A stretch of 64,000 bases of DNA from Lentilactobacillus sp. SPB1-3 (GTDB taxonomy: Bacteria > Bacillota > Bacilli > Lactobacillales > Lactobacillaceae): positions 1,612,001 to 1,676,000 of the forward strand of contig NZ_CP168151.1 of assembly GCF_026913205.2 (NCBI RefSeq), written 5' to 3'. The position numbers and the translations under genes were made by a program. This document shows, in pieces, positions 3,293-8,900 of the stretch. Position 1 is the stretch's first letter. Every line of letters starts with the position of its first letter. Below the pieces are notes generated by a model. That model made no database searches. It was given only the letters and a program-made list of their open reading frames with translations, and had not been told where the DNA came from.

Positions 3293-3312
3293 ATTTTAAT
3301 AATCAAAACTAG

Positions 3313-3377
3313 TTGCATTAAATTTTACAGGGTATATACTATTCATCATTCTTGATTGATTGTTCAATTAAGAATGA
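3313..3377 (+). promoter_or_regulatory. Promoter and probable TetR operator of the 3437 operon
   Basis: TTGCAT and TATACT are spaced by 16 bp (3313-3340). Six bases further starts an inverted repeat, TCATTCTTGATTG / CAATTAAGAATGA (3346-3377), with one mismatch and a 6-nt centre. This is a fitting site for the TetR protein encoded just downstream. Confidence 0.6.
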
Positions 3378-3436
3378 AAATCATATCATGCAAACAGAAG
3401 AAAATATCAATTACCACGATTTGTTGAGGAATTTAT

Positions 3437-4018
3437 ATGCGATCACAAGATGATGAAAAACGAAAAAGAATTTTAGATAGTACTAGCAACATAATAATGA
3501 CCCAAGGAATCGCCGCTGTGTCTTTAAGCAAGATTGCAAAGGATGCAGGAGTTGCTTCCGGAACACTTTACACTTATTTCGAAGATAAGAATGACATGCT
3601 TCGTTCATTGTATTTAAATCGCAAGCAGCGAATTGCTGAAGCAGTTACTAAATTCGATATCCACGGCGACCCTCGGCAAGAATTCAATCACTTCATGGAC
3701 CTAATCTATGAATATGGGCAAGAACATTTAGATGAATTCATTCTGATTCGGGAATTTGGCCAAAGCCCTATTCTCAAAAGTTTGAATATTCCCCAGGAAC
3801 AAGCTTTTGCTGGTTTCGAAGGATTAGAAGAATTTGTTCAAATAGGTATCAAAAAACAGGCCTTTTTCGACATTGATTATCAGATTATTCTCGATTACGC
3901 CTACACACCAGTGGTTGAATATTTGATTGCCCTTAACAACGGCACGTTGGACCAAAACGAAGTCTCATTCGATCAGATTAAATTGTTATCAACTAGAGCT
4001 ATCTTAATGGAGAAATAA
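3437..4018 (+). CDS. TetR/AcrR family transcriptional regulator
   Basis: 193 residues. The N-terminal helix-turn-helix (about residues 8-55) includes GIAAVSLSKIAKDAGVASGT and LYTYFEDKNDML, a canonical TetR signature. The C-terminal ligand domain is variable and gives no substrate clue. It is the first gene of an apparent operon with a frameshifted NmrA-like gene one base downstream, a sirtuin-like gene and a second NmrA-like gene. A perfect position for autoregulation is the inverted repeat at 3346-3377. Confidence 0.88.
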   Translation: MRSQDDEKRKRILDSTSNIIMTQGIAAVSLSKIAKDAGVASGTLYTYFEDKNDMLRSLYLNRKQRIAEAVTKFDIHGDPRQEFNHFMDLIYEYGQEHLDEFILIREFGQSPILKSLNIPQEQAFAGFEGLEEFVQIGIKKQAFFDIDYQIILDYAYTPVVEYLIALNNGTLDQNEVSFDQIKLLSTRAILMEK

Positions 4019-4019
4019 A

Positions 4020-4654
4020 ATGAAAAAAGTAATCTTAATCGGTGCTAATGGCGCCACAATGAAAGTTCTTGAAGATCAATTAAAGGATAATTCTGATGTG
4101 CATTTAACACTATTTTTAAGAAATGCTAGTCGGATAAATACTGACAACTTTACCGTTCCTGTTTCAGTTTTCGAAGGCGATGCTACCAATCAAAATGATT
4201 TAAACAAAGCCATTGCTGGCCAAGACATAGTGGCCGTTGGACTAAGTGGTGTCTTATCCCCATTCGTTGAACCAATTAAACAAGCAATGAACATGAATAA
4301 CGTTCACAGATTAATTTTCATCTTAGGATTAGAATTTACGACGAAGTTCCTGGAAAATTTGGTGAATGGAATGCAGCTATGGATGGCATGCCCGACTTCA
4401 AACATGCAGCCCAACTAATTGAAAATTCTGGTTTGAATTACACTATTTTAAGAGCGTCATGGATGTCTGATCGTCCCGATATCAATTACGAAACAACTGT
4501 CAAAGGTGAACCATTCCGTGGCACAGTAATCACTCGTGCCAGTATTGCAGATTACATTATTAAATTAATCAATGATCCTAACTTAGCAAATCAGGGATCG
4601 ATTGGTTTATCGGAACCTGGAACAGACGGAGACTCACCTTTCCCATTCATTTAA
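4020..4654 (+). pseudogene. NmrA-like NAD(P)-binding protein, frameshifted
   Basis: An atypical short-chain dehydrogenase/NmrA-like protein of about 211 residues, split by a one-base loss. The first frame carries the Rossmann start KKVILIGANGATMKVLEDQL and runs to about RLIFILGLG. The second frame continues with IYDEVPGKFGEWNAAMDG, then LNYTILRASWMSDRP. Restoring one G near position 4332 (TTAG to TTAGG) joins the two frames into a normal protein. Its whole-length similarity to the gene at 5429 supports this. Such proteins act as NAD(P)H-dependent reductases or redox sensors. It starts one base after the TetR stop, so it was translated as part of that operon. Confidence 0.8.
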
Positions 4655-4667
4655 GAAGGCATTTACA

Positions 4668-5363
4668 ATGAAAAACATCAACCCACAAATTGAACAACTT
4701 AACCAACTGATTGATTCACATCACCATATTGTTGCACTGACAGGTGCCGGTATTTCAACATCTGCTGGCATCAACGATTTAATGCACATGCCAATGGGTT
4801 CAGGATCATTACTATCCTCGGAAAGTAGCCTTGAAGCAGACCCAGTTAGTTTTTATAAAGAGCTTCACAAAACATTTTTGGATCAGATTTTCCAAAATGG
4901 TCCCACGATAGCCCATAAAGCATTAGCCAATCTTGAAAAGTCCGGTCATCTAGACGCAGTGGTGACTACAAATGTTGATTACTTACACGAAATTGCCGGT
5001 AACACTAAGGTCGCAGACATTTGGTACAGTTTTAACCACAACTACTGCCTCAAATGTGGTCACGAATTTTCAATCGATATTCTCAACCAATCTGGGGTTC
5101 CTTACTGCCCTATCTGTGGTGGATTAATCTCACCAGGACCCACTCATCATCACATCGGTACTTCTAGAACTGATATTGAGAATGCCGTTACCTGGATGAA
5201 TGAAGCCGATATGGTCATCGTTATCGGTTCAAACGGCTACTATGATCGAGTAAAAGAAAATGTGCCGCTAGTCCAAATTAATCCCCTAAAAACAGAGTTT
5301 GATCAAGAAGCAACACTCAACATTCGAGAAAATGCAGATGACGTGTTGAGTGGATTCGTTTAG
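4668..5363 (+). CDS. Divergent sirtuin (SIR2) family protein, predicted catalytic residue missing
   Basis: 231 residues. It keeps the Rossmann GAGIS (26-30), TNVD (101-104) and four zinc ligands in two Cys-x2-Cys pairs (C127/C130, C147/C150). In active sirtuins a His-Gly pair lies eight residues before the first zinc cysteine; here the equivalent residues are W119-Y120. The usual PDFR segment after the GAGIS loop reads NDLM, and the segment after the second zinc pair that normally binds the peptide is replaced by SPGPTHHHIG. NAD binding is likely; lysine deacylation looks doubtful. ATG at 4668 chosen because it follows AAGAAGG and starts the homology; an upstream in-frame extension is not supported. 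Confidence 0.75.
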   Translation: MKNINPQIEQLNQLIDSHHHIVALTGAGISTSAGINDLMHMPMGSGSLLSSESSLEADPVSFYKELHKTFLDQIFQNGPTIAHKALANLEKSGHLDAVVTTNVDYLHEIAGNTKVADIWYSFNHNYCLKCGHEFSIDILNQSGVPYCPICGGLISPGPTHHHIGTSRTDIENAVTWMNEADMVIVIGSNGYYDRVKENVPLVQINPLKTEFDQEATLNIRENADDVLSGFV

Positions 5364-5428: not shown

Positions 5429-6070
5429 ATGACAACAGTTTTAGTTCTCGGCGCCACTTCACCTACTGCACAAGCTTTTGTTAGATTAATGCAAACAGAT
5501 TACCCCGACGTAAACCTCAAACTATTCGTGAGAAATCCAAATCGTTTACCTCAGGATTTAAGGGAAAACTACACCGTAATAGTCGGCGACGGTGACAACT
5601 ATGATGCCTACGTAACTGCTCTTGACAGTGTAGATTATATCTATAATTCAATTGGTGGATTGGGAACCGGTGCCTACACCAAAATACTGATCAAAGCTAT
5701 TCGTGACACCAACACCCCAATTAAAAAAGTCGTGGATATTTCAGCCGGTGGTATTTATGGTGAATATATGTCAGGTACCGCACCTTACTTGTCAGCGGTT
5801 CGAGTAATTCATCCTAAATACACCAAAGATCAATTGAGTAAATTAGACTGGTACAATGAATCTGGATTGAATTTCACTATCTTTAGACCCGGTTTAATTC
5901 AGAATGGTCCTGAAACCCAAATTATTACCCATACGCCAGATTATCGAAAAATTGACAAAAACGAATTCGATATTAATCGAACAACATTTGCAAGAGCGGC
6001 TGCTAATGCAATGTTTAACGGTGATTACAATAATCAAAGTGTTTCGGTTTCAAATGGAGCTCCACTATAA
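5429..6070 (+). CDS. NmrA-like NAD(P)-binding oxidoreductase
   Basis: 213 residues with a Rossmann nucleotide-binding start TVLVLGATSPTAQAFVRLM, the strand LKLFVRNPNR, DYIYNSIGG and a C-terminal LNFTIFRPGL motif typical of atypical SDR proteins. It has no YxxxK catalytic pair, so it belongs with the NmrA/HSCARG-like redox sensors or reductases. It is an intact relative of the broken gene at 4020 and is the last gene of the TetR operon before a terminator. RBS AAAGGAAATTAT precedes the ATG. Confidence 0.8.
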   Translation: MTTVLVLGATSPTAQAFVRLMQTDYPDVNLKLFVRNPNRLPQDLRENYTVIVGDGDNYDAYVTALDSVDYIYNSIGGLGTGAYTKILIKAIRDTNTPIKKVVDISAGGIYGEYMSGTAPYLSAVRVIHPKYTKDQLSKLDWYNESGLNFTIFRPGLIQNGPETQIITHTPDYRKIDKNEFDINRTTFARAAANAMFNGDYNNQSVSVSNGAPL

Positions 6071-7625: not shown

Positions 7626-8030
7626 CTATAAACTATCGTAATAATCATCTTCTACTGGTTCCAACCACTCTGGCGTTCCCGCTGTAATCGCGATGTGCTC
7701 GAACCATGAATCCTTTTTCGCTCCATGCCAATGTTTGATACCATCTTTGGTAACAATAGTGTCACCCTTCTTTAGGGACTGGGCTGGTTTACCTTCCTCT
7801 TGATACCATCCTTCGCCACCGGTAACCAACAACATTTGGTAACCATCATGATGAATGTGCCAATTGTTTCTTGCTCCTGGTTCAAATGTCACCACACCAA
7901 CGCCAAACTGACCATCAGGTGAATCAGGCAATGCTGATAAATAAGTTTGACCAACAAAATACTGACTGTATGGATTAGGAATTCCTGCTTTAAAAATACT
8001 GCCATCTTTTAGTTCACTGTACTTAGCCAT
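7626..8030 (-). CDS. Cupin domain protein
   Basis: 134 residues, a single small beta-barrel cupin. Motif one is NNWHIHHDGYQMLLVTGGEG with its histidine metal ligands, motif two contains GDTIVTKDGIKHWHGAKKD. Proteins of this type next to a carboxymuconolactone decarboxylase-like protein are common in lactobacilli and are thought to handle small reactive carbonyl compounds or quinones; the substrate is not shown by the sequence. The ATG follows GGAGGATTAATC and lies two bases after the stop of the CMD gene, so the two are co-translated. Confidence 0.85.
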   Translation of the reverse strand: MAKYSELKDGSIFKAGIPNPYSQYFVGQTYLSALPDSPDGQFGVGVVTFEPGARNNWHIHHDGYQMLLVTGGEGWYQEEGKPAQSLKKGDTIVTKDGIKHWHGAKKDSWFEHIAITAGTPEWLEPVEDDYYDSL

Positions 8031-8032
8031 GA

Positions 8033-8356
8033 TTAATCCTCCTTATAAACATCCTGAGCAACTGAAAATGCTGACCATGCTTTTGGCCAACCAACATAAA
8101 ATGCCAGTTGAGTGATTGCCTCAACAACTTCATTTTTACTTAAACCATTTTCTTTGGCCTTATTCATGTGATACTTTAATTGTTCAAAAGCTCCTGTTGA
8201 AATCAAAGCTGTGATGGTGACCAGACTCCGATCTCTAGCTGAAAATTCTTTTTCTCGTGACCAAACTTGGCCAAATAAAACATCATCATTTAATTTGGCG
8301 AATTGTGATGCAAAATCACCTAAAGCATCTCGACCGGCGGTTTGTTTTTCTGTCAT
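8033..8356 (-). CDS. Carboxymuconolactone decarboxylase family protein
   Basis: 107 residues. The core ARDRSLVTITALISTGAFEQ followed by LKYHMNKAKENGLSKNEVVE and AITQLAFYVGWPKAWSA is the CMD helical fold. The CxxC/CxxH peroxidase motif of AhpD is absent, so peroxidase activity is not expected. It is the first gene of the CMD-cupin operon, driven by a MerR-type promoter with a 19-bp spacer and facing the MerR gene at 8466. RBS GGAGGAGTAGAT. A second, broken CMD gene with its own MerR regulator lies at 53861. Confidence 0.87.
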   Translation of the reverse strand: MTEKQTAGRDALGDFASQFAKLNDDVLFGQVWSREKEFSARDRSLVTITALISTGAFEQLKYHMNKAKENGLSKNEVVEAITQLAFYVGWPKAWSAFSVAQDVYKED

Positions 8357-8396
8357 ATCTACTCCTCCTAAAACCCACTTCTTGTTTACGTCCCAA

Positions 8397-8427
8397 ATAA
8401 TACATGTTAAAGTCGACTTTAAGTCAA
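8397..8427 (-). promoter_or_regulatory. MerR-type promoter of the CMD-cupin operon
   Basis: On the minus strand TTGACT and TATTAT are separated by 19 bp, longer than optimal, as in promoters activated by MerR proteins. The spacer region contains the perfect 16-bp palindrome TTAAAGTCGACTTTAA (8407-8422), the expected dimer site. Confidence 0.85.
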
Positions 8428-8465
8428 GTTGAAACCATAAAGTGATAAAAAGGAAGTCTCAATCA

Positions 8466-8900
8466 ATGACTCATAAGGAACAAAATACACTAACCATAAA
8501 AGAATTTTCCAACATATTTAATTTGAATGAATCAACAATTAGATATTACGAGAGTCAGTCACTATTGATATCTAAGCGCGATAAAAATAATCGTCGATAC
8601 TTTGATGAAACTGATGTTTCTTGGTTGAAATTCTTGTTGCATCTAAAAGGCACAGGCATGTCGCTAAATGATATGAAAAAATACGTGATTTGGCGTGCTC
8701 AAGGTGATGATACGATGGCAGAGCGCGTTGAATTACTAGAAAAGACCAGAGATGAATTCTTAAAAGATTTTGCTCAAGTTCAGCACCACTTACAAGTTTT
8801 AAACGACAAAATCGATTGGTATAACGATAAGCTGAACGGTGAGATTAATGATGAAGAGCAGTTCATCGAATATCTGTCGAAGATTGGCCATGAAGATTAA
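8466..8900 (+). CDS. MerR family regulator (AdhR-like)
   Basis: About 144 residues. The N-terminal DNA-binding domain reads TIKEFSNIFNLNESTIRYYE followed by FDETDVSWLKFLLHLKGTGM, the layout of the NmlR/AdhR branch that responds to electrophiles such as aldehydes. A dimerisation coiled coil follows (MAERVELLEKTRDEFLKDFA). No conserved metal-binding cysteines are present. ATG 8466 is chosen because AAGGAAG lies nine bases before it; an upstream GTG at 8442 has no such signal. It is divergent from the CMD-cupin operon. Confidence 0.87.
   Translation: MTHKEQNTLTIKEFSNIFNLNESTIRYYESQSLLISKRDKNNRRYFDETDVSWLKFLLHLKGTGMSLNDMKKYVIWRAQGDDTMAERVELLEKTRDEFLKDFAQVQHHLQVLNDKIDWYNDKLNGEINDEEQFIEYLSKIGHED

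Follow-up and report, generated by a model that had tools for sequence, protein, structure and literature searches.

Which activity, if any, remains to a sirtuin whose catalytic histidine has been replaced by tryptophan? In sirtuin deacylation, the His activates a ribose hydroxyl, and an Asn and an Asp serve in nicotinamide binding and release. The question is raised by a gene at positions 4668-5363 of a 64,000-nucleotide stretch of the Lentilactobacillus sp. SPB1-3 genome, the whole of which was analyzed and is called the window here. A preliminary description held that the product of this gene lacks the catalytic His-Gly pair, that the gene lies in an operon between two NmrA-like genes and under a TetR regulator, and that the protein looks like a NAD sensor or a changed enzyme, not a deacylase. 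The features on which the argument draws, numbered from the first letter of the window, are the following.

3346..3377, no strand assigned: putative operator, a 32-bp near-perfect palindrome with core ATTGA-TTGT-TCAAT, seen as an inverted repeat 5' of the TetR gene
3437..4018, plus strand: TetR-family regulator, first gene of the putative operon (Pfam TetR_N, 46.1 bits)
4020..4418, plus strand: N-terminal part of a frameshifted NmrA-like NAD(P)H-binding protein (Pfam NAD_binding_10, positions 1-102)
4379..4654, plus strand: C-terminal part of this NmrA-like NAD(P)H-binding protein, in another frame (Pfam NAD_binding_10, positions 122-184)
4668..5363, plus strand: Trp-type sirtuin of 231 amino acids (Pfam SIR2 match, AlphaFold2 model, matches to Thermotoga Sir2 PDB entries)
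4971..4979, plus strand: codons of N102-V103-D104, with the catalytic Asn and Asp retained (alignment rows)
5022..5027, plus strand: codons TGG TAC of W119-Y120, which replace the catalytic His-Gly (alignments; position hand-counted from the sequence)
5046..5117, plus strand: zinc-ribbon segment with C127, C130, C147 and C150 (translation)
5429..6070, plus strand: second NmrA-like NAD(P)H-binding protein, intact (Pfam NAD_binding_10, 70.5 bits)

The protein belongs to the SIR2 family. Its reading frame opens with ATG, 5' of which lies the ribosome-site-like sequence AGAAGG, and the translation scores 81.2 bits with Pfam SIR2 (PF02146), for which the cut-off is 24. Its closest solved relatives are the Thermotoga Sir2 (Sir2Tm) entries. 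An AlphaFold2 model, for which the input was an alignment of 47 sequences consisting of the window protein and relatives from a genome-contig search, has a mean pLDDT of 89.8 and a pTM of 0.87; compared with Sir2Tm structures it gives Z scores of 24-26, about 25, across ~220 residues. The score above the cut-off and the sirtuin fold together establish family membership. Membership in a SIR2-domain anti-phage system was considered and rejected: the four SIR2 matches from PADLOC align 33-43 residues of the window protein with profiles of 503-592 positions (best E 1.2e-7), and none is a full-length match to a defence SIR2 model.

Within the sirtuin fold, the residue changes named in the preliminary description are borne out. 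W119-Y120, eight residues N-terminal to C127, aligns with the HG of Sir2Tm, which we take to be His116-Gly117; Gln98 likewise follows Sir2Tm numbering, and H116 is also named in PDB entry titles. NDLM occupies the position of PDFR, Thr occupies that of Gln98 (TTNVD versus TQN[IV]D), and other residues stand where the peptide-binding segment FGE and the segment VYPxA would be. The motifs said to remain do remain: GAGIS (26-30), TNVD (101-104) and the zinc cysteines are all read in the protein. Of what marks a canonical deacylase, therefore, the window protein has the four zinc cysteines and has neither the catalytic His-Gly nor the PDFR cofactor loop with TQN[IV]D. The indole of Trp119 would fill the acyl-lysine tunnel. 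The window sirtuin itself is intact and full length, and it carries the residues that are invariant in its relatives. An ordinary His-type sirtuin, the second sirtuin of this genome, is encoded elsewhere.

The substitution is shared by a clade. The family search used profile A2, made from ten Trp-type relatives, against 397 genomes of family f1, the window's family-level group. All 41 matches better than ~1e-49 were read, and they comprise 38 Trp, two Gln (G217 and G267) and one His (G044). Tryptophan occupies the catalytic position in at least 38 loci from 34 genomes and 10 of the 40 genera sampled in this family; the count is a lower bound, and three loci read among the weaker matches in the family are all His-type. 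Two of the 38 Trp loci, G023 and G069, have broken frames. With A2, full-length Trp-type proteins reach 235-401 bits, versus 205 for the best His-type protein, and all 19 clade members of alignment A3 match PF02146, with E up to 0.001. The loss of the His is no isolated defect.

The 38 loci fall into three subgroups. The motifs of subgroup A (19 loci, including the window) are TTN[VI]D and GSNGYY-like. Subgroup B (14 loci) has TMN[VI]D, or TTNID in G184, together with EYWG-type motifs. Subgroup C (five loci) has T[MF]NLD and EYWGSIN, and only two of its four zinc cysteines remain. In an Erysipelotrichaceae MAG (L044), three frames carry Gln at the catalytic position; L044:4182-6729 is a tandem array of sirtuin-like frames.

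Beyond the family, the best matches read carry ordinary catalytic motifs, apart from those three frames. Class and phylum were each sampled with 398 genomes, and 57 best-match loci were read there; one is the window itself, and TQN[IV]D and HG stand in each of the remaining 56. Among the matches listed in the genome-contig search (80 kept), the loci read are His-type except for the L044 frames. Carriage by phages or plasmids was considered as well: viral contigs searched with the subgroup A alignment yielded no relative. A plasmid search with the window protein returned 40 records, all below 60% identity; of the 30 listed, some carry the annotation of an ordinary deacylase and others lack any feature.

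A maximum-likelihood tree of 68 rows was computed with the trait column blanked. It keeps every third His-type row from the genome-contig search and omits broken or partial frames, specifically both halves of G023, both of G069, G267 and two L044 frames. The Trp and Gln rows, 39 in all, form one clade with support of 100/98. The three Gln rows (G217 and L044) group at 96/92 and join subgroup A at 100/99. The catalytic position is Trp in 36 of 36 Trp-clade rows versus His in 25 of 25 ordinary sirtuins. The window protein is a member of a conserved clade of the sirtuin family in which the catalytic His has become Trp and, in one branch, Gln. Purifying selection acts on the clade: among 14 within-subgroup pairs tried, ten gave dN/dS values of 0.05-0.15. 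Two pairs with G160 were set aside, and for the pairs G000-G023 and G003-G011, synonymous change is saturated and gives no ratio; pN between the window sirtuin and that of G023 is 0.13.

Comparison of the 36 Trp rows with the 25 His rows, alongside three Gln rows and four rows from class M sirtuins (SirTM), defines what has changed and what has been retained. GAG, N102, D104 and the adenine-side Asn, N205, are invariant across the Trp and His rows, and the catalytic Asn and Asp are present in every row of all four sets (36/36 Trp, 3/3 Gln, 25/25 His and 4/4 SirTM). The Phe of PDFR is lost in all 36 Trp rows, being Leu or Met in 35 and Trp in one; its Arg is lost in 35 of the 36 and kept in G346 only. 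Gln98 has become Thr, Met or Phe throughout the 36, and the Phe/Tyr of FGE, at position 161, is Arg in 29 of them and His in the window protein. Zinc cysteines are retained to varying extents (C127 in 36 Trp rows, C130 in 30, C147 in 36 and C150 in 28). Several positions specific to deacylases have gone together, and those for NAD binding and nicotinamide cleavage remain.

We now turn to the operon around the window sirtuin. The reported gene order is real: TetR is followed after 1 base by NmrA, which is followed after 13 bases by the sirtuin, with 65 bases before the second NmrA. The upstream NmrA (4020-4654), presented as one of two flanking genes, is in fact split over two frames by a one-base frameshift near 4330-4340. 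It is a single open frame in G023 and G160, and an intact homolog exists at L031:9346-9981. The search for the SIR2-NmrA-TetR arrangement elsewhere found it in those same two genomes, G023 and G160, where the same TetR lies directly ahead of NmrA/SIR2. As a conserved operon, the arrangement thus stands with the qualification that it is one of several alternatives. The second NmrA (5429-6070) has no counterpart beside the sirtuin in G023; in G160 a convergent NmrA-like gene lies downstream. Also in G160, NmrA and a Trp-type sirtuin share one open frame of 473 amino acids with no intervening stop (L168:6852-8273), possibly a natural fusion. In the sister genome G023, an in-frame TAG lies within the sirtuin, in an assembly that is 83% complete with 7% contamination. 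Either assembly errors or a module that is being lost from the genus could account for this TAG and for the NmrA frameshift of the window.

The palindrome at 3346-3377, a putative operator, has 14-nt arms that are 93% complementary. It is the best in 3301-3440, and none of 300 mononucleotide shuffles reached its score. A similar core precedes the TetR gene in both G160 and G023. A promoter scan returned fewer promoter-like sites than in shuffled sequence. We note that cupin and CMD-family genes on the minus strand of the window (7626-8900), ~2.3 kb 3' of the sirtuin, are divergent from a MerR-like gene, and that these CMD and MerR-like proteins cluster with those accompanying subgroup B Trp-type sirtuins.

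Neighboring genes set the Trp and Gln loci apart from ordinary sirtuin loci. HMMs of 11 neighbor families, named after Pfam, were applied to four ORFs on each side of 40 Trp/Gln loci and of 19 His-type loci, the latter drawn from the same family and chosen by us, non-randomly. At least one of the 11 families occurs at 39 of the 40 Trp/Gln loci, a count that is partly by construction because the HMMs were built in part from the same Trp loci, versus 0 of the 19 control loci, a count that is independent; a weak NmrA-like match (20 bits) in G346 was left uncounted. Partners vary by subgroup. In subgroup A, NmrA neighbors the sirtuin at seven of the 19 loci and HIT at seven, with both at one; DUF2252 occurs at four closely related loci, TetR/DUF3737 at one, and none of the families at one (G241, at a contig edge). 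Subgroup B has a CMD-family gene directly 5' in 14 of 14 loci and MerR nearby in 12, the exceptions being G004, at a contig edge, and G069, where none was seen within four ORFs. All five subgroup C loci have a divergent Fe-S-biosynthesis-like gene and a downstream MarR gene, between which the sirtuins of L173, L174, L175, L176 and L178 are placed. Both Gln loci, G217 and G267, have an NmrA neighbor; there (L180 and L181), a 379-aa conserved gene and the NmrA-like gene lie 5' of the Gln-type sirtuin. Judging from the kinds of neighbor alone, these operons may respond to redox or electrophile stress.

How does the clade relate to sirtuins already known to depart from His-Gly? The consulted portion of Rack et al. 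2015 (PMC4518038) describes HG as invariant in every sirtuin class known at the time, with class M and its QG as the exception. According to the same portion, SirTMs have Gln for His, show no detected deacylase activity and ADP-ribosylate proteins, a reaction that requires Asn118 and Gln137, and they are linked to oxidative stress and operons. Like SirTMs, the Trp clade has the catalytic His replaced and the Asn and Asp of TxNxD kept, and four SirTMs share with it Thr for Gln98 and the absence of the PDFR Arg. Unlike the clade, these four keep the PDFR Phe. Features confined to SirTMs are QG, TNAD, GVGx[NT]TP, an adjacent macrodomain and a longer chain. The window protein has WY, TNVD and GSNGYY instead; all 38 loci of the Trp set have Trp, with Gln only in the Gln branch, and the macrodomain family PF01661 has no match in the whole window genome at E up to 0.01, which leaves the sirtuin without macrodomain linkage. 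True SirTMs that were read, in the same order beside long-type macrodomains, have TNAD, QG and GVG/GIG.TTP. Membership in class M is ruled out for the clade: SirTMs score 15.2 bits at best with A2, and the four in the tree stand on a separate branch of length 5.6. We further observed that one bacterial ORF of 573 amino acids (L227:1903-3624, in G122) joins a macrodomain part to a SirTM; in the portion of PMC4518038 drawn on here, such fusions are reported for fungi only.

The Gln of G217, G267 and L044 looks like a parallel change, because the true SirTMs form a separate branch, have low A2 scores and carry other motifs. Those relatives lie inside the Trp clade with subgroup A, and in G217 and G267 they share the NmrA gene 5' of the sirtuin; they differ in the Gln itself, in the tandem array of L044 and in the partial frame of G267. 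Relative to the canonical CobB/SrtN/Sir2Tm type, the Trp clade is alike in fold, zinc ribbon, GAG, the Asn and Asp of TxNxD and the adenine-side Asn, and unlike in His-Gly, the Phe-Arg of PDFR, the Gln of TQNID, FGE, VYPxA and neighbors. A further parallel is PDB entry 2h4h, by its title Sir2Tm H116Y with NAD and peptide bound. It too has an aromatic residue at the catalytic His position, whereas it is a laboratory mutant of a true deacylase. Because this mutant was solved with its ligands, an aromatic side chain appears compatible with NAD binding. The open literature, a scope that takes in few subscription papers, yielded no description of Trp-type sirtuins. An L. reuteri cluster of TetR, NAD-FAD-domain and SIR2 genes is mentioned in PMC4667477 and may be related to the Trp-type operons.

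What, then, does the window protein do? The part of the preliminary description that denied it a deacylase role is well supported by sequence, and we consider it very probable that the protein is not a deacylase. Its other part, NAD sensor or changed enzyme, stays an alternative at that level. Lacking the His general base and having a bulky indole at the acyl-lysine site, the protein would be unable to carry out the second step of deacylation. The notion is that NAD+ would be bound in the usual site, that Asn102 and Asp104 would still permit nicotinamide release, and that the ADP-ribose could pass to an operon partner (NmrA here, CMD or others elsewhere) or to water, with the adjacent regulator controlling the activity during redox or electrophile stress. 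We tentatively suggest that the protein cleaves NAD+ or transfers ADP-ribose and does not purely sense, an enzyme role that we rank narrowly above a pure sensor. That role is slightly favored because Asn102 and Asp104 are invariant and because of the likeness to SirTM, the closest mechanistic parallel by analogy, with Gln for His and protein ADP-ribosylation.

Several observations weigh against the enzyme. A pure NAD+ sensor would be expected to retain Asn and Asp as well, the PDFR Phe that SirTMs keep is lost in the Trp clade, and the variation of partners by subgroup leaves no single acceptor evident. The window genome also lacks a macrodomain match to reverse ADP-ribosylation, and its gene of the ADP-ribosyl-glycohydrolase family is unlinked; the sole PF03747 match lies at G000:C1:1493995-1494810 (L301), away from the sirtuin operon. 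A catalytically dead sensor of NAD+/NADH or of ADP-ribose, in which Trp119 would stack on the nicotinamide or gate it and contact with NmrA/CMD or with TetR/MerR/MarR would relay the ligand state, is a real contender, if a somewhat doubtful one. Invariant NAD-binding positions beside lost deacylase positions are what it would predict; local regulators, NAD(P)H-binding neighbors, the single NmrA-sirtuin ORF of G160 and a Sir2 H116Y that, by its entry title, holds NAD and peptide all agree with it. Yet it is not obvious why a pure sensor would keep N102 strictly conserved at the cleavage site, and the SirTMs, as far as the consulted text on them goes an active class of ADP-ribosyltransferases, share several of the changes.

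A broken NmrA in the window and a TAG in the G023 sirtuin also count against the enzyme, in that this genus may be losing the module. On that account the clade would be functional elsewhere and the window copy would have little function left. We consider this unlikely: the window sirtuin is full length with its clade-invariant residues, its pN to G023 is 0.13 against saturated synonymous change, a single-base error of assembly could explain the frameshift, and the G023 assembly is incomplete and contaminated. Less probable still is a protein that remains a deacylase, its base supplied by another residue or by substrate assistance. A fold of the SIR2 family that retains zinc cysteines and NAD residues would suit it. 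However, the search for a substitute His found only H83 and H107 invariant in the 36 Trp rows, and no replacement base is evident because both are conserved in ordinary sirtuins too; no His is specific to the clade. Changes also affect PDFR, Gln98 and the peptide-binding loop with FGE, and deacylation is presumably served by the ordinary His-type copy, which the genome has kept for that role.

Returning to the enzyme that cleaves NAD+ or transfers ADP-ribose, we speculate that the clade could constitute a previously undescribed class, "SirW", one branch of which is of the Gln type. Its members would have lost deacylation, would carry an invariant Trp in the active site and would spend NAD+ on ADP-ribosyl transfer or NAD cleavage, acting on redox partners encoded in the same operons. 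The class would be a second departure from deacylation, independent of class M, found here mainly in one lactic-acid-type family and switched by TetR, MerR or MarR. As a whole, this proposal is a possibility short of a probability.

Here, we have focused on a sirtuin of Lentilactobacillus and its relatives. They make up a second natural clade that has departed from His-Gly, with Trp fixed and Gln in one branch, and the catalytic site of sirtuins has thus changed more than once. The natural series of His, Gln and Trp provides a testbed for deacylation versus ADP-ribosylation versus NAD sensing, and the neighboring genes directly name candidate acceptors or partners.
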